DNA of 37,746 nucleotides, from contig JAHJPG010000093.1 of assembly GCA_018819925.1 (NCBI GenBank), positions 1 through 37,746 on the forward strand, written 5' to 3'. The notes beneath the pieces are model-generated. The model was not told the DNA's origin. It did no database searches and saw nothing but the letters and a program-made list of their open reading frames with translations. The number at the start of each line of letters is the position of its first letter. Within the stretch, counting starts at the first letter, position 1. Of the stretch, positions 15,082-37,746 are shown in pieces. The position numbers and the translations under genes were made by a program. The DNA comes from Pseudomonadota bacterium (lineage in GTDB: Bacteria; Desulfobacterota; Desulfarculia; Desulfarculales; Desulfarculaceae).

Positions 15082-16475
<1,394 letters not shown>

Positions 16476-18513: not shown

Positions 18514-20427
18514 ATGGCCGAAAATTCCCGCCGTATTTCCCTTTACGACATTTTCTACGGCATCCTCTGCTCGATTTATGTGTGGATGCTGATCCACTAC
18601 GCGCTCACCATGTGGGAGTCCCGGCAGCGCTACGGCGTACTATTTTTATCTCTCACCATGATGATCGGTTCGCTGATGGTGGTCCGCAAGAGGCGCTTCA
18701 TGCACATGAGCGGCATGGGGCAGCGGGTGGCGGCGGGCGCATGTTTCCTGCTCACCCTGGGGTGCCTGTCCTATCTGTGGATCGAGTACCCGTCCCTGGT
18801 CTGGGAGCGGGCCGGGTTCATCAACACCTGGGACATGCTGGTATCGGTGGTTTTCATCGTGGTGCTGCTGCAAATCACCTGGAGCACTTCCGGGCCCATC
18901 ATCCCCATAGTGACCTTGGTCTTCACCTCTTACGCGCTTTTCGGACATTGGCTTCCCGAGGGCTTTTTGTACCACCCGCCGATCTCGATAACCCGCTTCA
19001 CGGAGTTGGCTTGCGCGGAGATAAACGGCGTCTTCGGCCTGTTGAACCAGGTGGGGGCCACCTGGATAGCCATCTTCGCCTTCTTCGCGGGGTTCGTGCA
19101 TGGCTTCGGCGGCCTGGACTACATTCTGCGTCTGGTGGGCCGCATGGTGGGCCGCAGCAAACTGGGCGTGCCCCAGGTGGCGGTGTTGGCCAGCATGGCC
19201 TTTGGCGGCATGTCCGGCAGCGCCGGGGCCAACGCGGTCAGCACGGGCGCCTTCACCATCCCCACCATGAAGCGCTTCGGCATGCCTCCGGCAATCGCCG
19301 CGGCCATCGAATCGGTGGCCAGCTCGGGCGGCCAGATCATGCCCCCCATATTGGGCGCGGTGGCCTTTGTCATGTGCGACTACCTGGACATGTACTACTA
19401 CGAGATTTTGCTGGCCAGCCTGTGGGCGTCCATCACCTTCTTCGGCTCCACCATGCTGGGGGTTTACTTTCTGGCCAAACGCTACATCGATCCCGATGCC
19501 GAAGTGGACATGCCCCCGGAGCTCAAGGGCAAGATGTCGCTTGAATACGCCTTGCAGGGCATTCCCATCCTGTTCGCCTTCTGCGTGCTGCTCTACGTTT
19601 TCATCGTGTACCAACTCAACATCCTGGCCGGTGGATTCTGCACCATAATTGCGTTTTTGGGCTCGCGGCTTCTCTACGAGATTTACGTGGCCAAGGGAAA
19701 GCCCAAGTTCGCCTGGACTTTCGTGAAGGGCGTGTATCGCGGCACCTTGGCCGGCGCGGCCATGATGGTTTCCATCGGGGCCATGCTGGGCACCCTGGGC
19801 ATAGTGATCCGAATTCTCACCACCACCGGCCTGGGAGAGAAGATCTCCTTTTTCATGGTGTCGGCCTCCGCGGGCAACCTATGGCTGCTGCTTTTGTTCG
19901 CCATGCTTTGCTGCATCGTGTTCGGCATGGCCGTGACCACGGTGGCCGCCTACATCCTCACCGTGACCCTGGTCGCCCCGGCCTTGATTCATCTGGGCAT
20001 TCCTCCCCTGGTCGCTCATTTCACGGTGTTCTACTGGGCCATGCTGTCATCCATTACCCCCCCCGTGGCCGCGGTATGCGTCATCACCGCCGGGATAGCG
20101 GATGCCAACTTCCTGGAAACCTGTTGGCAGTCCATGAAGCTGGGCGCGCCCAAATTCATCCTTCCCTTCATCTTCATCACCTACCCCGACATCCTGACCT
20201 TCACTCCGTCCGGTTTTGAGATGTTCTTGATTTCCGGGGTTGGCTTTGTCGCCCTCTGCGCCGGGCTGCAGTCCGGTTGGGTCTGGTGGCAGCGCGTGGC
20301 CATGTTGGTGCTGGGGGTCCTGATCCTCTGCCCAACCGCGACCTGGCTGCTTTGGGTGTTGTTGGCCACCACGGTGGTCCTGTTCCCGGTGCTGTGGCGT
20401 ATGAACTATCGCGCCCGGCCGGCCTAG
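18514..20427 (+). CDS. TRAP transporter fused permease (4TM + 12TM, TAXI-associated)
   Basis: About 637 residues. A DctQ-like four-helix part is fused to a DctM-like part, the usual form paired with TAXI receptors. The N-terminal part includes ISLYDIFYGILCSIYVWMLI and several helices. The DctM part has ASMAFGGMSGSAGANAVSTG, TIPTMKRFGMPP and SSGGQIMPPILGAVAF, the conserved substrate- and ion-path motifs, and ITPPVAAVCVITAGIADANF near the end. ATG 18514 is preferred because GGGGTGG lies 5 bases before it; GTG 18505 is possible. It transports the acid that the downstream enzymes degrade. Confidence 0.94.
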   Translation: MAENSRRISLYDIFYGILCSIYVWMLIHYALTMWESRQRYGVLFLSLTMMIGSLMVVRKRRFMHMSGMGQRVAAGACFLLTLGCLSYLWIEYPSLVWERAGFINTWDMLVSVVFIVVLLQITWSTSGPIIPIVTLVFTSYALFGHWLPEGFLYHPPISITRFTELACAEINGVFGLLNQVGATWIAIFAFFAGFVHGFGGLDYILRLVGRMVGRSKLGVPQVAVLASMAFGGMSGSAGANAVSTGAFTIPTMKRFGMPPAIAAAIESVASSGGQIMPPILGAVAFVMCDYLDMYYYEILLASLWASITFFGSTMLGVYFLAKRYIDPDAEVDMPPELKGKMSLEYALQGIPILFAFCVLLYVFIVYQLNILAGGFCTIIAFLGSRLLYEIYVAKGKPKFAWTFVKGVYRGTLAGAAMMVSIGAMLGTLGIVIRILTTTGLGEKISFFMVSASAGNLWLLLLFAMLCCIVFGMAVTTVAAYILTVTLVAPALIHLGIPPLVAHFTVFYWAMLSSITPPVAAVCVITAGIADANFLETCWQSMKLGAPKFILPFIFITYPDILTFTPSGFEMFLISGVGFVALCAGLQSGWVWWQRVAMLVLGVLILCPTATWLLWVLLATTVVLFPVLWRMNYRARPA

Positions 20428-20554
20428 GGGTAATGTCCGGCCCTTTCGAGTGCCGGCCAGGCGAGATTAGGCCTGACTTGCCGGCCAGGTAAGCGGTGAC
20501 CGGCCTTGGTGAGAACCGAGCCGGCAAACAAGAGGCGTCGTCGTTAAACAGCTT

Positions 20555-21751
20555 ATGGAGTTGCCGGTGGAGCACGCCCTGCAAGAGTTGAAGATCCTGG
20601 ACCTGAGCATGAACCTGCCGGGCCCCTATATGACCTGGCTTCTGGCCTCGCTGGGGGCCGATGTGGTGAAGGTGGAGAACCCCCAGGGCGGCGACTATGG
20701 CCGCAGCATGGGGGCCGGCCCCGAAGCGGCCCGCCTTTCCTTTGACTCGGTGAACCGCAACAAGAAGAGCGTGGCGCTGAATCTGAAACATCCGGCGGCC
20801 AGGGAAATATTCCTGCAAATGCTGGATGACTACGACGTGGTGGTGGAGGGTTTTAGGCCGGGCGCCATGGACAAACTGGGCCTGGGCTTTGAGGTGCTCA
20901 ACGCCCGCCAGCCCCGCCTGATCCAGGTGTCCATCTCTGGCTATGGTCAGACCGGCCCCTATCGCCTGCGCGCCGGGCACGATGTCAACTACCTGGCTCT
21001 TTGCGGAGTGCTGGCCATGGGCGGCAGCCGGGCCGACGAGTTGGCCGTTGCCGGGGTGCAGATCGCCGACGTTGCCGGGGGTAGCCTCATGGCCCTGGCC
21101 GCCTTGCTGGCCGCGGTGGTGCAGCGCCATGGCACCGGGCGTGGCCAGTTGGTGGACGTGGCCATGTTCGACGGAGCCCTGTCCATGGCCACCAAGTTGC
21201 TGGCCCGGGTGCAGGCCGGGGCCGATGACCCCTCGCCCCGGGGCATGACCCTCAACGGGCGCTATCCCTGCTACAACGTCTACCGCGCCGGTGACGGTGG
21301 GTTCATGTCCCTGGGGGCCCTGGAGCCCAAGTTCTGGCAGGGCTTCTGCCAGGCGGTGGGCCGGCCGGACCTGCTGCCCGGGCAGTTCGGCGGATCGGAT
21401 GTGATCACCCGGGTGCAGGACATATTTTCCTCCCGCTCCCGCGACCAGTGGGCGGAGTTTTTCCGCGATCATGACGTGTGCTGCGAGCCGGTCTGTTCCC
21501 TGGAGGAGGCGGTCCAGGGGCCACTGGTGGCCGCCTGCGGCATGCTGGTCGCCGACCAACAAGGCCGCGAGTTTTTGAGGTCGCCCTTCAACCTCTCCCA
21601 GTCGCCTCTGGCGCCTGAAAGCCCTTCCCCCCATCTGGGCCAACACACCAGGGAAATATTGCTGGACCTGGGGTTGAGCGGGCGGCGCATCGATGAGCTG
21701 GCGGCTGGGGGGGCCCTGGGAGACGGCTCGCCTCCGGCAGAAAACGATTAG
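20555..21751 (+). CDS. CaiB/BaiF-family protein, alpha-methylacyl-CoA racemase-like
   Basis: A 398-residue relative of the protein encoded at 2006-3187 and probably its diverged paralogue. It has LDLSMNLPGPYMTWLLASLG at the start, AGHDVNYLALCG (His142-Asp143), GVQIADVAGGS (Asp172) and LGALEPKFWQ (Glu near 258). The His/Asp/Glu set is that of alpha-methylacyl-CoA racemases, though CoA transfer to the imported acid cannot be excluded. It follows the permease by 127 bases of GC-rich DNA with two copies of TGCCGGCCAGG. No good ribosome binding site is seen before the ATG. In an operon that also has an acyl-CoA synthetase, a racemase is less redundant than a second activation enzyme. Confidence 0.88.
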   Translation: MELPVEHALQELKILDLSMNLPGPYMTWLLASLGADVVKVENPQGGDYGRSMGAGPEAARLSFDSVNRNKKSVALNLKHPAAREIFLQMLDDYDVVVEGFRPGAMDKLGLGFEVLNARQPRLIQVSISGYGQTGPYRLRAGHDVNYLALCGVLAMGGSRADELAVAGVQIADVAGGSLMALAALLAAVVQRHGTGRGQLVDVAMFDGALSMATKLLARVQAGADDPSPRGMTLNGRYPCYNVYRAGDGGFMSLGALEPKFWQGFCQAVGRPDLLPGQFGGSDVITRVQDIFSSRSRDQWAEFFRDHDVCCEPVCSLEEAVQGPLVAACGMLVADQQGREFLRSPFNLSQSPLAPESPSPHLGQHTREILLDLGLSGRRIDELAAGGALGDGSPPAEND

Positions 21752-21807
21752 TTTTGCGCGGTCCCAAGGGCCCGCCATCAACCTTGACAACATGCGGATG
21801 ACAAAAA

Positions 21808-23343
21808 ATGGATGAGAATCCACTGCTAAAAAGAAAACAAAAGCTGATAAACGCCACTACCCCGGAAGTGGCCCAAAAAGTTTTTTACGACAAAGGCATG
21901 TTCACTCCCAGGGAGCGGCTGGACAAATTACTGGATGCGGGTTCCTTCGCTGAACTGGACGTTTTTGCCAGGCACCAATATTCCGACTTCGGCATGGACC
22001 GCAAAGAGATTCCCGCCGACGGGGTGATCACCGGCTTTGGCGAAATCAACGGGCGCAAGGTGTGCGTATACGCCCAAGACTTCGCCGCCCTTGGCGGGAC
22101 CTACGGCGAGATGCACGGCAAGAAGATCTGTGCCCTGATGGACCTGGCCGCCGAGGCCCAGGTGCCCATCATCGGCATCTGCCACTCCGGCGGGCTAAGG
22201 CTGCACGAAACCCTGGGCCCGGAAAAAATGTTCGGGCACCTGTTCAGGCGAAACACCCTCTACTCAGGGGTGGTGCCCCAGATATCCATCATCTTGGGCA
22301 TCGTGGCCGGGGGGCAAGCCTATTCCCCCGGGCTCACCGACTTCATCCTCACCACCGAATCCAGCAGCACCTACATCGCGGGCCCCGCTTTTGTGCAGGC
22401 CCAGACCGGCCAGGCCATAAGCGACCAGGAGTTGGGCGGCGCTCCCATGCACGCCAGGGTAAGCGGACTGGTGGACCTCATGGAGGAAAAGGAAGGGGAC
22501 ATCCTCTCCCAGGCCCGCCGCCTCATGGACTTTTTGCCCCTTAGCTGGCAAAGCCCGGTGCCCAGGGCCGATTGCGCCGACGATCCCAACCGCGCCGAGC
22601 CCACCCTGGACCAGGTGGCTCCCCAGATGTCCTTCATGCCCTTTGACATGCACAAGGTCATCAACGCGGTGGTGGACCAGGGCGACTTTTTGGAGACCAA
22701 GCCCCTGTACGCCGCAAACATGATAACCGGCTTTGCCCGCTTGGGCGGCCGTTCCGTGGGGATCATGGCCAACCAGCCCAAAGTGCTGGGGGGCGTCATC
22801 GACATAAAGGCGGCGGAAAAGGGCGCCCGTTTCGTGCGCTTCTGCGACGCCTTCAACATCCCGGTCATCACCTTCCAGGACTCGCCGGCTTATCTGATCG
22901 GCCGCGATATGGAGCGGGGTGGAATGATCTACCGGGGAGCCAAGCTGCTGCACGCCTACGCCGAGGCCACCGTGCCGCTCATCACCGTGATCGTGCGCAA
23001 GGCCTACGCCGGCTCCTACATCGCCATGGGCAGCCAGTACATAGGGGCCGATCTGGTCTACGCCTGGCCTGGAGCCGAGATTTCCAGCGTGGCCCCCAAG
23101 ACGGCAGCCAGCGTGATCTTCCGCAAACAGATCGCTCAGGCCAAGGATCCCGCCGAGACCCAGGAGTTGCTGGACTACTACTACCAAAACTACGTCAACC
23201 CCATACGCGCCGCGTCCCTGCGGCACATAAACGACATCATCCGCCCAAGGGACACCCGGCCCACCCTGATCAAGGCGCTGGAGTTGCTCATTAACAAGAA
23301 AAAGCTCGTGCCCGCCAAGAAGCACGGCAACATACCGCTGTAG
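21808..23343 (+). CDS. Acyl-CoA carboxylase/decarboxylase carboxyltransferase subunit (PccB/MmdA family)
   Basis: A 511-residue double-crotonase-fold carboxyltransferase, the length of PccB and MmdA. It has FTPRERLDKLLDAGSFAELD at the start, GTYGEMHGKKICALMDLA, an altered first oxyanion motif GICHSGGLRLHE (usually DSGGARIQE), and a C-terminal half with VITFQDSPAYLIGRDMERGG and KAYAGSYIAMGSQYIGADL. It moves a carboxyl group between biotin and an acyl-CoA. No biotin carboxylase, biotin carrier or membrane decarboxylase gene is in the window, so those parts must be elsewhere. In context, decarboxylation of a malonyl- or glutaconyl-type CoA ester is as plausible as carboxylation. The start codon lacks a clear ribosome site. 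Confidence 0.9.
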   Translation: MDENPLLKRKQKLINATTPEVAQKVFYDKGMFTPRERLDKLLDAGSFAELDVFARHQYSDFGMDRKEIPADGVITGFGEINGRKVCVYAQDFAALGGTYGEMHGKKICALMDLAAEAQVPIIGICHSGGLRLHETLGPEKMFGHLFRRNTLYSGVVPQISIILGIVAGGQAYSPGLTDFILTTESSSTYIAGPAFVQAQTGQAISDQELGGAPMHARVSGLVDLMEEKEGDILSQARRLMDFLPLSWQSPVPRADCADDPNRAEPTLDQVAPQMSFMPFDMHKVINAVVDQGDFLETKPLYAANMITGFARLGGRSVGIMANQPKVLGGVIDIKAAEKGARFVRFCDAFNIPVITFQDSPAYLIGRDMERGGMIYRGAKLLHAYAEATVPLITVIVRKAYAGSYIAMGSQYIGADLVYAWPGAEISSVAPKTAASVIFRKQIAQAKDPAETQELLDYYYQNYVNPIRAASLRHINDIIRPRDTRPTLIKALELLINKKKLVPAKKHGNIPL

Positions 23344-23368
23344 GTACCGGCTGCAAGGAGAAGACACA

Positions 23369-24535
23369 ATGGATTTTAATTTCAGCGAGGAAATAGCGGC
23401 GGTCCGCGACGTGGCCCGCAAGTTCGTGGACAAAGAGGTTCGCCCCAGGGTGGCGGAAGATGAGAAGACTCATACCTTTCAGCGCGACCTGGTGGACCAG
23501 ATGGCCGAGTTGGGCTTTTTCGGCTGCCCCATCCCCGAGGAGTACGGCGGCAACGACATGGGATTTTTGGCTCACACCGTGATCTGCGAGGAGATAGCCA
23601 AGGTGAGCGGCTCGCTACGGGCCGCCTTCAACATGCAGACCATGGGCACCGCCCGCGAAATATTGCAGTTCGGCACCCCGGAACAAAAAGAGAAATTCAT
23701 CCCCGGCCTGGTAAGTGCGAAAACCCTGGGCTGCATCGGCATCACCGAGGCCAACGCGGGCTCGGACGTGGGCGCCCTGAAAACCACGGCAGTCAAAAAG
23801 GGCGACCGTTACGTACTAAACGGCTCCAAGAACTGGATCACCTACGCCCAGGTGGCCGACGTGGGGGTCATCTACGCCTACACCGATCCCTCCAAGCCCT
23901 ACAAGGGCATGTCCGGCTTCATCGTGGACATGCATACCCCAGGCATCAGCAGCGGGCCCACCGCCGAAAAGATGGGCTGGAACGCCTGTCCCACGGGAGA
24001 ACTGTTCTTCGACGAGGTGGAGGTGCCCGCTGAAAATCTCCTTGGCGGCCATGAGGGTCAGGGCTTCCCCTGCGTGATGGCCGGCCTGGACAACACCCGC
24101 CTCACCGCCGCTGCCGGGGCCTTGGGGGTGAGTCAGGCGCTCATCGACGAGGCGGTGAAATACGCCCAGGAGCGGGAGCAGTTCGGCCAGGCTATCGGGA
24201 TGTTCCAGATGGTGCAGGAGGAGCTGGCCCGCATGATCGTGGAAACCGATGCCGCCCGGCTGCTGACCTATCGCTGCGCGGTGCAAAAGGACGAGGGGCA
24301 TATCCACAACACCCTGGAGACATGCACGGCCAAGTACTACTCCTGCGACGTGGCCTCCCGGGTGGCCGACGGCGCTCTGCGCACCCTGGGGGCCTACGGC
24401 TACTCCAGCGAATATCCCGTGGAGCGCCTGTTGCGCGACGCCAAGCTCTACCAAATCCTGGAGGGCTCTGCCAACGTGCAAAAAATGATAATCGCCAGTG
24501 ACGCCCTGGGCTACCGCAAGGCCAACAAGTTATGA
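23369..24535 (+). CDS. Acyl-CoA dehydrogenase
   Basis: A 388-residue FAD enzyme of normal length. The N-terminal helical domain has FGCPIPEEYGGNDMG, the middle domain has GCIGITEANAGSDVGALKTTA and NGSKNWITYAQVAD (flavin contacts), and the C-terminal domain has REQFGQAIGMFQMVQEELA and RTLGAYGYSSEYPVERLLRD. LYQILEGSANVQ places the catalytic base at Glu365, the usual position for short-chain and glutaryl-type dehydrogenases. It introduces a 2,3 double bond into an acyl-CoA and passes electrons to ETF, which is not encoded here. The ATG follows AAGGAGA, 25 bases after the carboxyltransferase. A glutaryl-CoA-dehydrogenase-like role next to a decarboxylase subunit is attractive but unproven. Confidence 0.94.
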   Translation: MDFNFSEEIAAVRDVARKFVDKEVRPRVAEDEKTHTFQRDLVDQMAELGFFGCPIPEEYGGNDMGFLAHTVICEEIAKVSGSLRAAFNMQTMGTAREILQFGTPEQKEKFIPGLVSAKTLGCIGITEANAGSDVGALKTTAVKKGDRYVLNGSKNWITYAQVADVGVIYAYTDPSKPYKGMSGFIVDMHTPGISSGPTAEKMGWNACPTGELFFDEVEVPAENLLGGHEGQGFPCVMAGLDNTRLTAAAGALGVSQALIDEAVKYAQEREQFGQAIGMFQMVQEELARMIVETDAARLLTYRCAVQKDEGHIHNTLETCTAKYYSCDVASRVADGALRTLGAYGYSSEYPVERLLRDAKLYQILEGSANVQKMIIASDALGYRKANKL

Positions 24536-24583
24536 TCTCTTGCGGCTTTTTGATGTAAACCACTGGAAGGTGTCAGAGGAATC

Positions 24584-26263
24584 ATGAACCAGGAACAGGA
24601 ATTCCCACAGGCCGGTTTCGACTATCAACTCAGCTTGATCAAGCTGCTGCAACGGGCGGCCCTAATCCATCCCCGTGAAGAGATAATCTACAAGAACGTA
24701 TTCCGCTCCAACTATGCCGAGGAATACGTCCGGTGCCAACGCCTGTCCAATGCCTTGCAGGGACTGGGGGTGAAAAAGGGCTCCAAGGTCATCGCCTTTG
24801 AATGGAACACCCACCGGCACTTTGAAATATATTTCGGGGTCCCCTCCATGGGGGCCATCATGCAGATGGGCAACCCGTTCCTCACCCCCCAGCAGATAAC
24901 CTTCATTGTCAACCGCGCCCAGGTTGACGTGCTGGTTCTCAATGACGAGCTGGTTCCCTTGATCGAATCCATCAGCCACAACCTGGAATCGGTGCGCCAC
25001 TACATCATCACCAGCGACAAGGGCGGACTGCCGCCCACCAAGTTGAGCCCGGTGCATGAGTACGAAGCCCTGTTGGCGCAAAGCTCACCGGAGTTCACCT
25101 ATCCCGAGTTGGACGAGAAGACCATCGCCTCCCTGAGCAACACCACCGGCACCACCGGCGACCCAAAAATATGCTTCTTCTCGCACCGCCAGCATCTTTT
25201 ACACACCATGGTTTGGACCATCATGCTGTTGGGCTTTTCCGGCCGCCGGGGTTTTGACGCCCGCCGGGATCTGATGATACCGCTGGTGCCCATGTTTCAT
25301 GCCCACGGCTGGAGCCTGCCTTACATGGCCACCCTCCTGGGCTGCCGCCAGGTATATCCCGGCCGATTCGAGCCCACCGAATTCCTGAAGCTGCTGGAGC
25401 AGGAGAAGGACCCCGGGCAGGGCGGGTTCATGCAGTGCGTACCCACCCTGCTGGACATGGTTCTTTCCCATCCCGAGATCGAACATTACAAAAAGTTCCT
25501 CAGAGGCATCATCTACGAGGGCGGCGGTTCGCGCGTACCCAAGAAGCTGGCCATCAGGGCCCAGGAAATGGGCATCGACGTGTGCGCCGGTTGGGGCATG
25601 ACCGAGATCTACACCAAGGTGGCCCTGCAATACCTGAAACCCCACATGTTCGACTGGCCCGGCGAGGACCAACTGGACTTCCTCACCCGCACGGGCATGG
25701 CCGTTCCCCTGGTGGAGCAGCGGGTGGTGGATCATGACATGAACGATGTCCCCAGGGACGACAAGTCCATCGGCGAGATCGTGCTGCGGGCCCCTTGGCT
25801 CACCGGCGGCTATTACAAAGACCCGGAAGCTTCAGAAGAACTGTGGCGCGGCGGCTGGCTGCATTCCAGCGACCTGGCCACCATCAACCAGGAAGAAAGC
25901 GTGCTCATCGCCGACCGCAACAAGGACGTGATCAAAAGCGGCGGCGAATGGATCTCCAGCCTGACCCTGGAAAGCCTGTTGAGCACCCATCCCTTGGTTC
26001 GGGAGGTAGCCATCATCGGCGCCAGGTCCAACAAATGGGGGGAGCGTCCCGTGGCGGTTGTGGTCCCCTCGCGCGAAACGGATGAGGCGACCCTTAAAAG
26101 CGAACTGATAAAACACCTGGACCTGTTCGTGGACCAGGGGAAAATCCTCAGGTGGTGGATTCCCGAAAAATACGTCTCGGTCACAGAGTTGCCCAAGACC
26201 AGCGTAGGCAAGCTCAACAAAAAAGAGATGCGAAACCGCTTCCGGGGGGTTCTGGAAGACTAA
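24584..26263 (+). CDS. AMP-forming acyl-CoA synthetase (AlkK-like)
   Basis: A 559-residue ligase. The P-loop is LSNTTGTTGDPK (residues 184-195), the A5 motif CAGWGMTEIY lies near 336-345, WLHSSDLATIN contains the Asp of the adenylate site, and the catalytic lysine is Lys543 in TSVGKLNKKEM. The central segment IPLVPMFHAHGWSLPYMATLLG resembles medium- and branched-chain fatty acid ligases of the AlkK type. Its presence means the operon can activate its own acid after TAXI-TRAP uptake. AGAGGAAT precedes the ATG. It is not a close copy of the ligase at 368-1924, so the two modules probably have different substrates. Confidence 0.93.
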   Translation: MNQEQEFPQAGFDYQLSLIKLLQRAALIHPREEIIYKNVFRSNYAEEYVRCQRLSNALQGLGVKKGSKVIAFEWNTHRHFEIYFGVPSMGAIMQMGNPFLTPQQITFIVNRAQVDVLVLNDELVPLIESISHNLESVRHYIITSDKGGLPPTKLSPVHEYEALLAQSSPEFTYPELDEKTIASLSNTTGTTGDPKICFFSHRQHLLHTMVWTIMLLGFSGRRGFDARRDLMIPLVPMFHAHGWSLPYMATLLGCRQVYPGRFEPTEFLKLLEQEKDPGQGGFMQCVPTLLDMVLSHPEIEHYKKFLRGIIYEGGGSRVPKKLAIRAQEMGIDVCAGWGMTEIYTKVALQYLKPHMFDWPGEDQLDFLTRTGMAVPLVEQRVVDHDMNDVPRDDKSIGEIVLRAPWLTGGYYKDPEASEELWRGGWLHSSDLATINQEESVLIADRNKDVIKSGGEWISSLTLESLLSTHPLVREVAIIGARSNKWGERPVAVVVPSRETDEATLKSELIKHLDLFVDQGKILRWWIPEKYVSVTELPKTSVGKLNKKEMRNRFRGVLED

Positions 26264-26327
26264 GGCGTGCCCGCCCTTTTACAGAGGAACAACGGGCGGC
26301 GCTCGCGTCGCTGAAAGAAGAAGAGGT

Positions 26328-27506
26328 ATGCGAGAGGTAGTAATCACCAGCGCGGTACGCACTGCGGTCGGCGCTTTCCTGGGCGGCTTGTCCAGCCTGA
26401 GCGCCACCGATCTGGGCGCCACCATCATCAATGAAGCCATGGCCCGCTCCGGCCTGCTGGGAGCCCAGGTGGACGAGTGCATCATGGGCTGCGTCTTGCC
26501 CGCCGGCCTGGGCCAGAACCCGGCCCGTCAGGCGGCGCTCAAGGCCGGCCTGTCCTTTGATGTGGGCTGCATCACCGTGAACAAGGTCTGCGGCTCGGGG
26601 CTGAAGGCGGTGATGCTGGCCGCCCAGGCCGTGGCCTGCGGCGACGCCGACATCGTGGTGGCCGGGGGCATGGAGAGCATGTCAAACGCGCCCTATCTGC
26701 TGCCCAAGGTCCGCACCGGACAGCGCATGGGGGACGCCGTGGTGGTGGATTCCATGGTGCACGACGGCCTGTGGGACCACATCAACGACTTCCACATGGG
26801 CATGAGCGCCGAGTTGTGCGCCGAGAAGTATGGCGTCGGCCGGGCCGACCAGGACCAGTTCGCCTTCGACTCTTACGTCAAGAGCCTCAAGGCGGCCGAG
26901 GAAGGCCGCTTTGACAGCCAGATCCTGCCGGTGAGCATCCCCCAACGCAAGGGCGAGCCCAAGGTGGTGGCCCGGGACGAGGGGATCATGAAAGCCGACC
27001 TGGGCAAGCTGGGCTCTCTCAAGACGGTGTTCAAGAAGAACGGCACGGTCACCGCGGGCAACGCCAGCACCCTCAACGACGGGGCGGCGGCGGTGGTGGT
27101 GATGGCCGCGGACAAGGCGCGGGAGTTGGGCATCACCCCGATGGTCAAGGTGGGGGCCCAGGGCGCGGCGGGCATAGACCCCAAATACGTGCTGGTGGCG
27201 CCCATCTATTCCATTCCCAAGGTGGCGGCCAAGCAGGGCCTGGACCCCAAGGACATCGACCTGATGGAGGTCAACGAGGCCTTCGCTTCCTCCTCGGTGG
27301 CGGTGCAGCGCACCCTGGGTCTAGACCCGGCCAAGATCAACATATACGGCGGCGGCCTTTCCATCGGCCACCCCATCGGCGCTTCGGGCGCACGGGTGCT
27401 CACCACCCTGATCTACGCCATGAAGGACGTGGACGCGGCCACGGGCATGGCCAGCCTGTGCCTGGGCGGCGGCGAGGCGGTGAGCCTTATCGTGGAGAAT
27501 CTTTAG
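26328..27506 (+). CDS. Thiolase (acetyl-CoA C-acyltransferase family)
   Basis: A 392-residue thiolase II-type enzyme with all catalytic residues: Cys88 in NKVCGSGLKAV, His348 in GGLSIGHPIGASGAR and Cys378 in SLCLGGGEAV. It cleaves a 3-ketoacyl-CoA with CoA to release acetyl-CoA, or works in reverse. It is the last gene of the operon, 64 bases after the ligase, and a hairpin terminator follows at 27605-27655. No enoyl-CoA hydratase or 3-hydroxyacyl-CoA dehydrogenase is present in this operon; these steps must be supplied elsewhere, since the only fadB-like gene in the window is broken. Confidence 0.95.
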   Translation: MREVVITSAVRTAVGAFLGGLSSLSATDLGATIINEAMARSGLLGAQVDECIMGCVLPAGLGQNPARQAALKAGLSFDVGCITVNKVCGSGLKAVMLAAQAVACGDADIVVAGGMESMSNAPYLLPKVRTGQRMGDAVVVDSMVHDGLWDHINDFHMGMSAELCAEKYGVGRADQDQFAFDSYVKSLKAAEEGRFDSQILPVSIPQRKGEPKVVARDEGIMKADLGKLGSLKTVFKKNGTVTAGNASTLNDGAAAVVVMAADKARELGITPMVKVGAQGAAGIDPKYVLVAPIYSIPKVAAKQGLDPKDIDLMEVNEAFASSSVAVQRTLGLDPAKINIYGGGLSIGHPIGASGARVLTTLIYAMKDVDAATGMASLCLGGGEAVSLIVENL

Positions 27507-27604
27507 GTGCCGTATCTTTCAGGCGGAGTGAATATGCTAATCAAGACCCTCGACGTCATCGATATCCTGCACCTAACGTGACACTGATCCAAGCAATGAA
27601 CCAT

Positions 27605-27655
27605 CGTGCCGGCCAAGGAGGAGTTGAGGCTCAACCTGGCCGGCACGTTTGTTTT
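27605..27655 (+). terminator. Terminator of the catabolic operon
   Basis: CGTGCCGGCCA (27605-27615) pairs perfectly with TGGCCGGCACG (27637-27647), with an inner GTTGAG/CTCAAC stem in the loop, followed by TTTGTTTT. It lies about 100 bases after the thiolase stop codon and before the gntR promoter. Confidence 0.8.
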
Positions 27656-27712
27656 GGTGCCGACAAAGAGATTAACTAAATGGCCTAATTAAATCCTATG
27701 GAAACCAGACTA

Positions 27713-27720
27713 TGTATACA
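27713..27720. promoter_or_regulatory. Second possible GntR-type site, TGTATACA
   Basis: A perfect 8-base palindrome of the same TGT-nn-ACA form as the site in the gntR promoter. Its centre is 43 bases from that site, about four helical turns. It may be an auxiliary operator. A near match (TGTATAAA) overlaps the -10 box of the catabolic promoter at 16546-16553. Confidence 0.35.
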
Positions 27721-27746
27721 GAAAGTGAGGGGTTTCACTTGAGCGC

Positions 27747-27775
27747 TTGACTGCTTGTCGACATAACATTATGAT
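27747..27775 (+). promoter_or_regulatory. gntR promoter with internal operator
   Basis: TTGACT (27747-27752) and TATGAT (27770-27775) are spaced by 17 bases. TTGTCGACA (27755-27763) lies between them, identical to the site in the promoter of the preceding operon. This arrangement is what self-repression by the GntR protein would require. Confidence 0.7.
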
Positions 27776-27818
27776 TAGTAAGGCATAAAGCGGTTAACGA
27801 AAGGATAGATATAACAAC

Positions 27819-28508
27819 ATGGTAAAAGTGTACCAGCCAGGGTCCATCGTAGACCAGCTGTACAGCCTTCTGTGCCAGGAGATAATGGACGGCACTCTTG
27901 AACCGGGATATTTTTTAAAAGAACAGGAATTAAAGGACCGCTTTGGCACAAGCAGGGCTCCTATAAGAGAGGCGATCCGCCTATTAGCCGCCGACAGACT
28001 GGTTGTCGTAAGCGCCTACAAAAAGAAATACGTGCGCAAGATAACTCGTGAGGATTTGCTGGAAGTAATCCCCGTGCTGGCTTGTTTGGAGGGGTGCGCC
28101 GCGAAATTGACTGCGGAAAAGGCCACCCCACAGTGGATAGATGAATTGGTCAAGATTAATGACGAGCTTAAAAAATCTTATCAGGCTGGTGATATTGAGA
28201 ATTGCATTGACCTGAACTTTAAGTTTCACGGCCATTATATAAAAAGCGCTGCCAACGAGGCCTTGAAGCAGGCCATACGGCCCATCATTCAGAGGACCGT
28301 TCGGCTTTGGGTATCATGTTTATACACAAAAAAATCTAATCTATTTGAAAAAACTATTATCGAACATGACAAAATTATCGAAACATTTGTGAACGGAGAC
28401 GCTAAAAAAACGGAGGAAAGCGCACGTGAACATGTTGAGAATTTGCTTTTGCGGGCCATGAAATATTCGATTTTCGACAAACAAGGTAATTTCAACTTGG
28501 TGAAATAA
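27819..28508 (+). CDS. GntR-family transcriptional regulator, FCD (FadR-like) subfamily
   Basis: A 229-residue cytoplasmic repressor or activator. The winged helix (about residues 9-72) has IVDQLYSLLCQEIMDGTLEPG, LKDRFGTSRAPIREAIRLLA and the wing with VRKITREDL. The C-terminal all-helical FCD domain (about 78-215) has metal-binding-type histidines in FKFHGHYI, IEHDKIIE and REHVENLL. Such proteins sense acyl-CoAs or organic acids. AAAGGAT precedes the ATG. The gene is less GC-rich than the operon it follows. The shared palindrome in its own promoter and in that of the 16761-27506 operon makes it the probable regulator of that operon. Confidence 0.92.
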   Translation: MVKVYQPGSIVDQLYSLLCQEIMDGTLEPGYFLKEQELKDRFGTSRAPIREAIRLLAADRLVVVSAYKKKYVRKITREDLLEVIPVLACLEGCAAKLTAEKATPQWIDELVKINDELKKSYQAGDIENCIDLNFKFHGHYIKSAANEALKQAIRPIIQRTVRLWVSCLYTKKSNLFEKTIIEHDKIIETFVNGDAKKTEESAREHVENLLLRAMKYSIFDKQGNFNLVK

Positions 28509-28732
28509 AAACCTGGGCTGCGCTGGGGAGCAAGGAAAAATACCGGCGCAGTCGCGACCCACGCAACCAAGGCTGCCTAGTTTGCTAGTTAGAGGGTTTT
28601 AGCGCCATGGTCATGGCAAAAATGCGAAGCTTGCACGCAAGACGCAGCCCCCTTGTGAATCGGCATCCATCAGACCACACCTGCGAGTGTTGGAGGGAGG
28701 CTCATCTAAAAAGCGGGACATCGCTTAGACCA

Positions 28733-28758
28733 GACGTAAACTAATTTACGTCTTTTTT
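28733..28758 (+). terminator. Rho-independent terminator behind gntR
   Basis: GACGTAAA (28733-28740) and TTTACGTC (28745-28752) form a perfect 8-base stem with a 4-base loop, followed directly by six T residues. It is the first intrinsic terminator after the gntR stop codon at 28508; the 225 bases between hold no gene that I can support. Confidence 0.75.
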
Positions 28759-28804
28759 ACGTCCAACCACCCTCCGAAGGTATTCGACCTAATTCGCACC
28801 ACAC

Positions 28805-28834
28805 AAAAAAAGGGGCCAGGCATCGCGCCTAACC
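28805..28834 (-). terminator. Terminator behind the tRNA-Sec remnant
   Basis: On the minus strand GGTTAGGC pairs with GCCTGGCC (two G-T pairs) around GCGAT, followed by CC and seven T residues. It begins 14 bases after the CCA end of the tRNA-Sec fragment, where a natural tRNA terminator would be. This suggests that the 3' flank of the fragment is the original one. Confidence 0.65.
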
Positions 28835-28848
28835 TCTTGTAATCGTTG

Positions 28849-28913
28849 TGGCGGAAGTGCATGGGAATCGAACCCACCTACCGCCTTACTCAGACGGTAC
28901 ACCGGATTTGAAG
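28849..28913 (-). pseudogene. selC: 3' half of a selenocysteine tRNA gene (selC remnant, likely integration site)
   Basis: Read on the minus strand from 28913 the sequence gives the anticodon loop CTTCAAA (anticodon TCA, 28911-28909) and the 3' side of the anticodon stem (TCCGG). A long variable arm follows (TACCGTC paired with GGCGGTA), then the T arm with GGGTTCGATTCCC, the 3' acceptor strand GCACTTCC and an encoded GCCA. These are features of tRNA-Sec. The 5' half is missing: GTGTA precedes the loop and cannot pair with TCCGG, and no GGAAGTGC acceptor strand stands at the right distance. The break in the anticodon loop is where tyrosine recombinases often cross over. A functional copy must exist elsewhere. 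Confidence 0.8.
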
Positions 28914-30174
<1,261 letters not shown>

Positions 30175-34346: not shown

Positions 34347-35654
34347 ATGCCCAGCGGCCCCGGCGGGGGTAGTATTGCGCCCATGATCAACCCCGGGTCC
34401 ATAGCCCAGGCCGGCGGCCGCGGCCGCGCCTGGGCCGTTTATGCGGTCTGCCTCTGCGGCTTCATGATGAGCATGTTCTACCGCGTCTCGGTGACGGTGA
34501 TCAGCCCCCAGCTGGCCGCCGACCTGGGTCTTAGCGTCAGCCAGCTCAGCGATCTTTCCGCCGCCTTTTTCTACGCCTTCGCCGCCGCCCAGATCCCCCT
34601 GGGCATATTTTTGGACCGCTGGGGGGCGCGTCTGTCCATGACCCTGCTCAACGGCGTGGCCGTGGCGGGGGCCCTGACCTTCGCCCTGGCCCAGGGCGGG
34701 GGCATGGCCACGGTGGGCCGGGTGCTGTTGGGGCTGGGCGTGAGCGGCAACATGATAGGGGCCATGCTGCTCGTCGCGGCCTGGTTTCCCCCCCGGCGCT
34801 TCGCCACCCTCACCGGGGCCATGGTGGGGGCGGGCACGGCGGGCCAGCTTCTGGCCGCCACCCCCCTGGTCTACTTGACCCAGGCCACGGGCTGGCGGGG
34901 GGCCTTCGCCCTGGCGGCCGCCCTCAACGTCCTGCAGGCCGCCGCCTGCTGGTGGGTGATACGCGACACCCCCTTGGGGGTGGAGCCGCCCCGGGCGGCC
35001 CGCGAGAATCCCCTGAAGGGCCTGGGCCAGCTTTTCAGGCATTCCTATTATTGGATCATCAGCCTGGGCGCCTTTTTCCGCTACGGCTGCCTCATGGCCC
35101 TGCAGGGCCTGTGGGCCGGCCCCTACCTGATGAAGGGCCTGGGTCTGGACCAGGTCCAGGCCGGCAACATCCTCTTGTTCGTGCCCCTGGGCTACATGAT
35201 CGGCCTGCCCCTGTGGGGCCGCATCAGCGACGAGGTTTTGGCCTCGCGCAAGCGGGTGATCCTGATGTCCCTGTTCGGGTCGGCCCTGCTCACCCTCTCC
35301 CTGGGCCTGATGCAGGGGGTGCCGGTGTGGGTGCTCTACGCCCTGTTCCTGGGCCTGGGCTTCATGTCCGCCCCGGGGCAGATCATGTACCCCCACATCA
35401 AGGAGCTTTTGCCCCCCCACCTGGCGGCGCGGGCGCTTACCGGCATAAACCTCTACACCATGCTGGGGGCGGCGTCCCTCATGCAGATGGCGGGCCTTTT
35501 GGTGGAGGGCGATCCCTCGTCCCTGAGCGGCATCGAGGGCTACTGGCCGGTGTGGCTGTTCATGGCCGGGGGGCTGGTCCTGTCCGGATTGCTATACATA
35601 TTGATACCCGACAGCAGGCCCGTGGGCGGCCAGAGGCCCGCCAGCGAAGGCTAG
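34347..35654 (+). CDS. Major facilitator superfamily transporter
   Basis: A 435-residue protein with twelve membrane helices. After FMMSMFYRVSVTVISPQLAADLGLS comes the A motif region GIFLDRWGARLS between helices 2 and 3. LGLGVSGNMIGAMLLVAAWF and AGTAGQLLAATPLVYL follow, and GLPLWGRISDEVLASRKRVI is the matching A-like motif of the second half. It resembles anion/glucarate-type MFS porters in length and in the loop motif; the substrate is unknown. The start may be 34347 or the ATG at 34383; neither has an ideal ribosome site. Its stop codon overlaps that of the converging UGA-containing gene by two bases. Confidence 0.92.
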   Translation: MPSGPGGGSIAPMINPGSIAQAGGRGRAWAVYAVCLCGFMMSMFYRVSVTVISPQLAADLGLSVSQLSDLSAAFFYAFAAAQIPLGIFLDRWGARLSMTLLNGVAVAGALTFALAQGGGMATVGRVLLGLGVSGNMIGAMLLVAAWFPPRRFATLTGAMVGAGTAGQLLAATPLVYLTQATGWRGAFALAAALNVLQAAACWWVIRDTPLGVEPPRAARENPLKGLGQLFRHSYYWIISLGAFFRYGCLMALQGLWAGPYLMKGLGLDQVQAGNILLFVPLGYMIGLPLWGRISDEVLASRKRVILMSLFGSALLTLSLGLMQGVPVWVLYALFLGLGFMSAPGQIMYPHIKELLPPHLAARALTGINLYTMLGAASLMQMAGLLVEGDPSSLSGIEGYWPVWLFMAGGLVLSGLLYILIPDSRPVGGQRPASEG

Positions 35655-35959
35655 ATGGAGCAGGCGGCGGCCAGGGCGGCCACGCCGTCCACCTTTAGCC
35701 AGCGAAAACGCCAGAAACCGCCCAGGCTGATGTATAGCCGGGGGCCCGACAGCATCAGGCCACGCTGCAGAAACAATTCCACGCCGTCCACCTCATGCCG
35801 GTTGAAAAGGTGCATCTGATCCTGCTCCGGCGGCTGGGGCGCGAACCGCGCCCCGGTGGCGGGGGCTCAACCGCCGGTGCGGGCGGGAGGCATGATGGTC
35901 AATTGGCCGCCGTGGGCGGCCAGCCATTCGCGGGCCTGGGGTGTGATCTCTACGCGCAT
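35651..35959 (-). CDS. Probable HesB-like (CC/Se-motif) selenoprotein with in-frame UGA
   Basis: From the ATG at 35959 (preceded by GAGGTG) the frame encodes 102 residues if the TGA at 35869-35867 is read as selenocysteine (residue 31), and ends at TAG 35653-35651. The start MRVEITPQAREWLAAHGGQL, the TGG-U-AP segment, HEVDGVELFLQRGL and the end LYISLGGFWRFRWLKVDGV resemble small HesB-like proteins in which a Cys-Cys or Cys-Sec site follows a GG-LTI strand. The reading continues with good coding character after the UGA, and a hairpin with a G-containing loop stands 20 bases behind it. Function is unknown, perhaps metal or cluster binding. Ordinary gene calling would split or miss it. Confidence 0.75.
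35836..35854 (-). promoter_or_regulatory. SECIS-like hairpin behind the UGA codon
   Basis: On the minus strand GGGGCGCG and CGCGCCCC pair perfectly over 8 bases around a GTT loop. Exactly 20 bases lie between the UGA and the loop. Bacterial SECIS elements need a stem-loop at about this distance with a G at the start of the loop. The position and loop fit, but GC-rich DNA makes hairpins common. Confidence 0.55.
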
Positions 35960-36108
35960 GGACACCTCGTGGGGTTTATCGGGATACCGAATGCCATCCT
36001 GCTTGTACTATTGTACCAGGCGGGTTTTCCTCCGCCAGAGCAGGATCAATTGCATTCTCCCAGCCCCCGCCTTCACAATATAACAAGAACCTGTTGGCGA
36101 GGAGTTAC

Positions 36109-36291
36109 ATGAGCAATGCACAACGGGAAGAGTTGTTGGCTCTGCGCCTTAGGCTGATCGAGGAAGTGGAGCAGGCCCGGGCCGCCCTGCCGGCCCACTC
36201 GGTGCGCCCCTGGCAATGGCAGCGGGTGGAGGACGCCGAAGAGGCCTTGGCCGAAGTTGACCGCCAACTGAAAGCCCTGGAGGAGGCCTAG
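36109..36291 (+). CDS. Small helical protein of unknown function
   Basis: A 60-residue protein from the ATG at 36109, which follows GAGGAGTTAC. It is rich in Glu, Leu, Arg and Ala ([20 protein letters not shown], then [24 protein letters not shown]), so it should form two amphipathic helices joined by [12 protein letters not shown], perhaps a helical hairpin that dimerises. No signal peptide or catalytic motif is visible. It is divergent from the UGA-containing gene across 149 bases. I know no function for it; the clear ribosome site and coding pattern support it as real. Confidence 0.7.
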
Positions 36292-36518: not shown

Positions 36519-37746
36519 ATGGACTACACCCGCCGCAGTTTCTTGAAGGCCTCGCTGGGCGCCCTGGCCGGGGCCACCGCCGGGGGCCTCTGGGCCGTGC
36601 CGGGGCTGGCGGCGGCGGACCACCGGGTGGAGCTGGTGGCCCAGCCGGCTCGGATCAACCTGGGAAGGGGACCTGAATTCAATGCATTGGCGTACAACGG
36701 CCAGACGCCGGGACCAGTCATCAGGGTGCGGGAGGGCCAGAGCCTGCGGGTGTCTTTAAAAAACCGCCTACCTCGACCCACCACCATCCATTGGCACGGC
36801 CTTCCCGTGCCCAATCCCATGGACGGAGTCCCAGGGCTTACCCAGGCCGCCGTGCCCCCGGGCGAGAGCTTCACCTACCAGTTCACCGCCCGCCCGGCGG
36901 GCACTTATTTTTACCACTCCCATTTCGGATACCAGCTTGACCAGGGCCTCTACGGCGCCCTGATCGTGGAGCCGGTCCGGCCCCTGGGCGGCTGGGACCG
37001 CGAAGAGGTGTTGTTGCTGGCCGACTGGGTGATGGCCGACGGCGGGGGAGCCGCCCCGGTGCCCCGGCGCGCGGCCATGGGCGGCATGATGGGCGGCGCC
37101 AACGCCCCCGGCGCGCCGCTGGCCGAGCCCTATTACCAGGGCTACGCCGTAAACGGGCGTCTCTACCCTTCCGGCCCGCCGCTCAAGGTGAAAAAAGGCG
37201 ACAAGGTGCGCCTGCGCCTCATCAACGCCTCCTCGTCCACCAGCTACGACCTTGGCCTGGCCGGCCACCGGCTCACCGTCTTGGCCCTGGACGGACAGGC
37301 GGTGACCCCGGCGGTATTCGACGTGGTGCGCCTGGCCATGGGCGAGAGGGTGGACGTGGAGTTCACGGCCGATAACCCCGGGGCCTGGCTGCTCCAGGCC
37401 CACGACAGCGGCCAGGGCGAAAGCGGCCTGGCCCTGGCCGTGGTCTACGCCGGCTCCGAGAACCGCGCTCCGGTGGGGCCCCGCTTCCACCCTGGCCTGA
37501 GCCTGGCCACCTACTGGGACCTGGCCGCCGCCCTGCCGGTGGCCCACCCCGCCGGGCAGCCCCAGCGCTGGTATCGCCAAACCCTGAGCGGGGGGATGCA
37601 CTCGCCCTACTGGAGCATTAACGGCAAGAGATACCCGGACAGCGAACGCCTGGCCGTGGCCCCGGGGGAAAAGGTGCGCCTGAGCTACTTCAACCGCAGC
37701 ATGATGCCCCACCCCATGCATCTGCACGGGCATTTTTTCCGGGTGA
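36519..37746 (+). CDS. Tat-exported multicopper oxidase (3' end outside the window)
   Basis: The 409 visible codons start at the ATG at 36519. A twin-arginine signal ([20 protein letters not shown], cleavage near GLAAA) sends the folded protein out of the cytoplasm. Copper-binding motifs appear in order: [16 protein letters not shown] (HWH), [16 protein letters not shown] (HSH) and, at the end, [10 protein letters not shown] (HxxHxH). The final motif with the type 1 copper Cys is beyond the window. A Met-rich stretch [12 protein letters not shown] near residue 190 resembles copper-binding inserts of CueO- or CopA-like oxidases. Likely roles are copper tolerance or metal oxidation, which need oxygen or another acceptor and are notable in an anaerobe. 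Confidence 0.94.

Follow-up and report, generated by a model that had tools for sequence, protein, structure and literature searches.

The closest described relatives of the gene reported here are the proteins of the CC/Se motif family, represented in NCBIfam by the model NF041239 and formerly referred to as the Moorella thermoacetica hypothetical selenoprotein, for which a 2026 review gives no function (PMC13188914). A table of the same review lists CxxU as the motif of this family (PMC13188914), a motif note that lies outside NCBI's cut-off for NF041239. A redox role is assumed for most bacterial selenoproteins (PMC9312934, PMC13188914), and the bacterial SECIS element has been modelled as a hairpin with a stem of 4–16 bp, a loop of 3–9 nt with an early G, and a spacing of 16–37 nt (PMC13188914). 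Two further groups offer points of comparison, namely the IscA/SufA-type Fe-S carriers (Pfam Fe-S_biosyn, PF01521) and the HesB-related selenoproteins described by TIGR01911.

The gene lies on the minus strand at positions 35651–35959 of the 37,746-nucleotide stretch of DNA that was analysed (the window), where it encodes 102 residues, ends on TAG and is preceded by a Shine-Dalgarno-like GAGGTG (35963–35968, minus strand) located 3 nt ahead of the ATG. Minus-strand translation from 35959 to 35651 agrees with the reading of an earlier note on this DNA, in which the frame is interrupted by a single TGA with selenocysteine (Sec, U) at residue 31. This TGA occupies positions 35867–35869 (minus strand), and its reading as Sec is drawn from the comparison of TGA and Cys across family members; a lone cysteine is present at residue 100. 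On its 3′ side the gene converges, as had also been described, with an MFS transporter gene (PF07690; 34347–35654, plus strand), such that the two stop codons even overlap (MFS TAG, 35652–35654, plus strand; selenoprotein TAG, 35653–35651, minus strand). On the other side lie a divergent 60-aa ORF (36109–36291, plus strand) and a multicopper-oxidase-like gene (36519–37745, plus strand), which was named by eye from sequence motifs, has a twin-arginine-like start (TRRSFLK) and runs off the window.

The window protein matches NF041239 with 52.8 bits, above the curated cut-off of 40, over positions 1–91 of the 91-position model, which bears out the label "CC-Se" given to it previously. It is the sole match to this model in the whole genome, and all 24 of the 24 aligned members match the model as well, while searches of Pfam gave no match for the window protein. 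Judged by its sequence, the window gene is thus a new member of an already catalogued selenoprotein family, with which it shares its length, a match along the entire model and the presence of Sec at the motif. It departs from the family in the residues around Sec, since the CxxU motif is absent from the window protein, as it is from the other Sec forms read: the corresponding residues are TGGU, with Thr three residues ahead of Sec. Ala stands in place of the second Cys of the CC motif in the window protein, whose sole other Cys is C-terminal.

Homologues were collected from two overlapping samples, one of 395 genomes drawn from the phylum and one of 63 drawn from the class, a scope confined to the phylum, and family members were found in 13 genomes of the former and 17 of the latter. 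The closest named relatives are Desulfarculaceae metagenome-assembled genomes (L023). Among the 24 distinct proteins, that of the window included, the codon at the Sec position is TGA in 21 and Cys in two (as Cys-Cys), and encodes neither in one (L035). Cys or Sec is therefore found at the same place in 23 of 24 family members, in keeping with the expectation of the earlier note that homologues should carry one or the other. Comparison of the codons downstream of the UGA with those of the three closest homologues reveals differences at first, second and third positions of 7/1/16, 7/2/22 and 5/5/22, respectively. These differences sit mostly at third positions; purifying selection persists downstream of the TGA, and the frame therefore codes for protein past it. 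A more distant homologue, G301 (L036, 1501–1788, minus strand), has two consecutive TGA codons at the motif (GUU), past which the homology continues, and may represent a double-selenocysteine protein; its genome carries selA.

The putative SECIS element, assigned by covariation and the published consensus model, is located at positions 35836–35854 (minus strand), where an 8-bp stem is closed by a 3-nt loop, GUU (GGGGCGCG-GUU-CGCGCCCC). The stem starts 12 nt from the UGA and the loop lies 20 nt from it, so that the distance of 20 bases quoted previously for the hairpin is correct for its loop, but not for its stem. With 8 bp, GUU and 20 nt, the hairpin falls within the published limits on stem, loop and spacing. 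By itself it constitutes weak evidence, because a stem of at least 8 bp is found in a SECIS-like position after 40 of the 1038 TGAs (about 4%) of this GC-rich window. The evidence becomes strong through covariation across 18 aligned sequences, in which 85% of cells pair and two-sided changes are observed in six of the eight base pairs; neither the percentage paired nor the covariation score was matched by any of 500 shuffles or by any slid control. As codon constraint and relatedness may contribute to this signal, the covariation does not amount to independent proof.

The genome also encodes the machinery for Sec incorporation, with SelA (621 bits), SelB (390 bits) and SelD (370 bits) all above their cut-offs, as well as an intact selC at C61:18402-18495 (73 bits, likewise above cut-off). 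All four genes that the earlier note had proposed to look for are present, and neither of the two outcomes that it regarded as fatal to the Sec reading was observed. The selD gene has an in-frame TGA of its own. Because of the NF041239 match, the sel genes, the TGA- and Cys-containing homologues, the purifying selection and a SECIS fit with compensatory changes, we conclude that the window gene is very probably a functional selenoprotein gene in which UGA31 is decoded as Sec. Decoding of codon 31 would be performed by SelB and Sec-tRNA(Sec) owing to the hairpin located just downstream, and would generate a 102-residue protein that bears Sec31 and a single C-terminal Cys100.

An AlphaFold model of the window protein, built on the 24-sequence alignment, has a moderate pLDDT of 73.6, with the last residues falling under 50. 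With this model, the nine best Foldseek matches are mostly of the IscA/SufA type at E-values of about 0.05, and IscA came top in a second structural comparison that used the same model of pLDDT 73.6 (Z 8.6 over 84 residues). Furthermore, a MAFFT multiple alignment places Sec31 onto Cys35 of IscA, whereas hhalign against IscA/SufA yields a probability of 38%, which is suggestive at most. The predicted structure makes it likely that the window protein has an A-type (HesB/IscA) fold. No such relationship is visible in the sequence, as no family member matches PF01521 at E up to 1, a whole-genome search with PF01521 gave no match, TIGR01911 is likewise without a match of E ≤ 1 among the 24 members, and a sequence search of solved structures returned only chance matches to viral capsid proteins, all with an E-value of at least 0.6. 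The description "HesB-like" made at the outset thus holds at most for the fold and fails for the sequence. Compared with IscA/SufA, the window protein is alike in predicted fold, in the alignment of Sec31 with Cys35 and in having a Cys near the C-terminus, but has Sec instead of Cys and lacks the C-terminal CGCG motif; where A-type carriers have three ligand cysteines, two of them in that motif, it has Sec31 and the single Cys100. Like the TIGR01911 proteins, it is a small selenoprotein with a GG-U motif, but it differs from them at the C-terminus and in the lack of a match to their model. The same genome contains two TIGR01911-like genes that score under the cut-off of that model. One of them, at C118:4242-4499 (L069), has one in-frame TGA, which forms part of an SGGU motif, and is a second, HesB-related candidate for a small selenoprotein.

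In the predicted fold, Sec31 would occupy the position of the first ligand cysteine of A-type carriers, and Cys100 would lie near that of their C-terminal ligands. In the most likely mode of action, to which we give roughly even chances, Sec31 and Cys100 would work as a pair, serving as ligands of a metal or Fe-S cluster or, alternatively, forming a reversible selenenylsulfide redox pair. In sister genera, a protein bearing this pair would act in the company of the membrane protein BI-1 (Bax-inhibitor-1) and of a ferredoxin oxidoreductase of the pyruvate type. In a variant of the selenoprotein reading, whose prospects we place slightly below even, the product would be no metal or Fe-S carrier but a thiol/selenol redox protein, with Sec31 attacking the substrate and the C-terminal Cys acting as the resolving residue. 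It is favored by the redox character attributed to most bacterial selenoproteins (PMC9312934, PMC13188914), by the CxxU motif listed for the CC/Se family (PMC13188914) and by the distribution of the C-terminal Cys, which is exactly third from the C-terminus in 19/19 Sec forms of the family Desulfarculaceae and is the only other Cys in 17 of these 19, a pattern that is an additional observation of the present analysis. The predicted fold, in contrast, is that of an A-type carrier and not thioredoxin-like.

The genomic surroundings differ between clades. Within the genus of the window, the order pitrilysin-like peptidase, MFS transporter, selenoprotein, 60-aa ORF and multicopper oxidase is repeated in four further loci (L023, L024, L053 and L065; in L024 and L065 the peptidase is cut by the contig end), while L052 and L055 keep the peptidase and MFS genes and differ on the opposite side. 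Of the 11 Sec loci examined in sister genera, eight (L048, L050, L057, L060, L062, L063, L064 and L066) have a same-strand BI-1 gene about 60–420 bp beyond the Sec gene. In six of these loci porG follows BI-1 on the same strand, and the Sec gene of sister genera often precedes porGDAB as well. A gene for the carbon-starvation transporter CstA lies within 600 bp in 3/3 loci without Sec (L058, L059 and L061), which encode two Cys-Cys proteins and one protein with neither residue. No gene neighbor common to the whole family was found among the loci examined, and neither BI-1 nor CstA is nearby in L049, L054, L056 and L067. Because these associations are clade-specific, the neighborhoods suggest rather than show a function.

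The prevalence of membrane-protein neighbors at most loci (MFS in the genus of the window, BI-1 in eight loci and CstA in all three of those lacking Sec) would fit a second variant of the selenoprotein reading, in which the product would be a small protein that assists or regulates a transporter or other membrane protein and senses redox state or metal. We consider this unlikely, given that the neighbors come from unrelated families and change from clade to clade, and that four loci have neither BI-1 nor CstA in the vicinity. The CC/Se family could also be envisaged as a branch of the A-type carriers in which Sec takes over from the first ligand and the CGCG motif gives way to one C-terminal Cys. 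Its members would then be carriers of metal or Fe-S clusters with a selenolate ligand, and in several genera would serve the ferredoxin oxidoreductase encoded downstream; this is a speculative proposal, and we regard it as improbable. The link to the Fe-S carrier fold, the third-from-end Cys and the BI-1/porGDAB and CstA neighborhoods provide concrete hypotheses for the family.

The remaining alternative, in which the TGA is an ordinary stop and the gene encodes a 30-residue peptide or reflects a pseudogene or an assembly error, is exceedingly improbable: although TGA is a stop in the standard bacterial code and the window offers hairpins of such size by chance after a small share of its TGAs, the conservation of this TGA across separate genomes, recurring as it does in 21 of the 24 members, which come from separate assemblies and represent many genera, led us to reject these explanations, and the purifying selection on the frame past the TGA, the substitution of Cys for it in two members and the Sec machinery of the genome likewise stand against them. 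As a selenoprotein gene, the window gene represents a clear case where ordinary annotation would truncate the product at an internal UGA.

A tRNA-Sec fragment that the earlier note had related to Sec usage does exist in the window, at positions 28853–28938 (minus strand), but is only a partial copy of selC and carries no weight as evidence for decoding. It scores under the family threshold, and ARAGORN identified no tRNA within the window. Its 3′ 62 nt are identical to selC between the anticodon arm and the 3′ end, whereas the true 5′ part of selC is missing; since its own 5′ part has no match to selC, the fragment was rejected as a decoding tRNA-Sec. A partly duplicated tRNA 3′ end of this kind is a typical mark of an integration site, and the fragment is probably the attachment-site scar of an element integrated at selC. 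Visual inspection of the ORFs of 180 aa or more at positions 19000–28900 revealed no integrase. An IS110-like transposase ORF (29140–30174) adjoins the partial selC copy. Elsewhere in the window, positions 15410–15527 (plus strand) strongly match the Rfam model of ALIL, a pseudoknot that serves insertion sequences as a frameshift element, with 91.7 bits.
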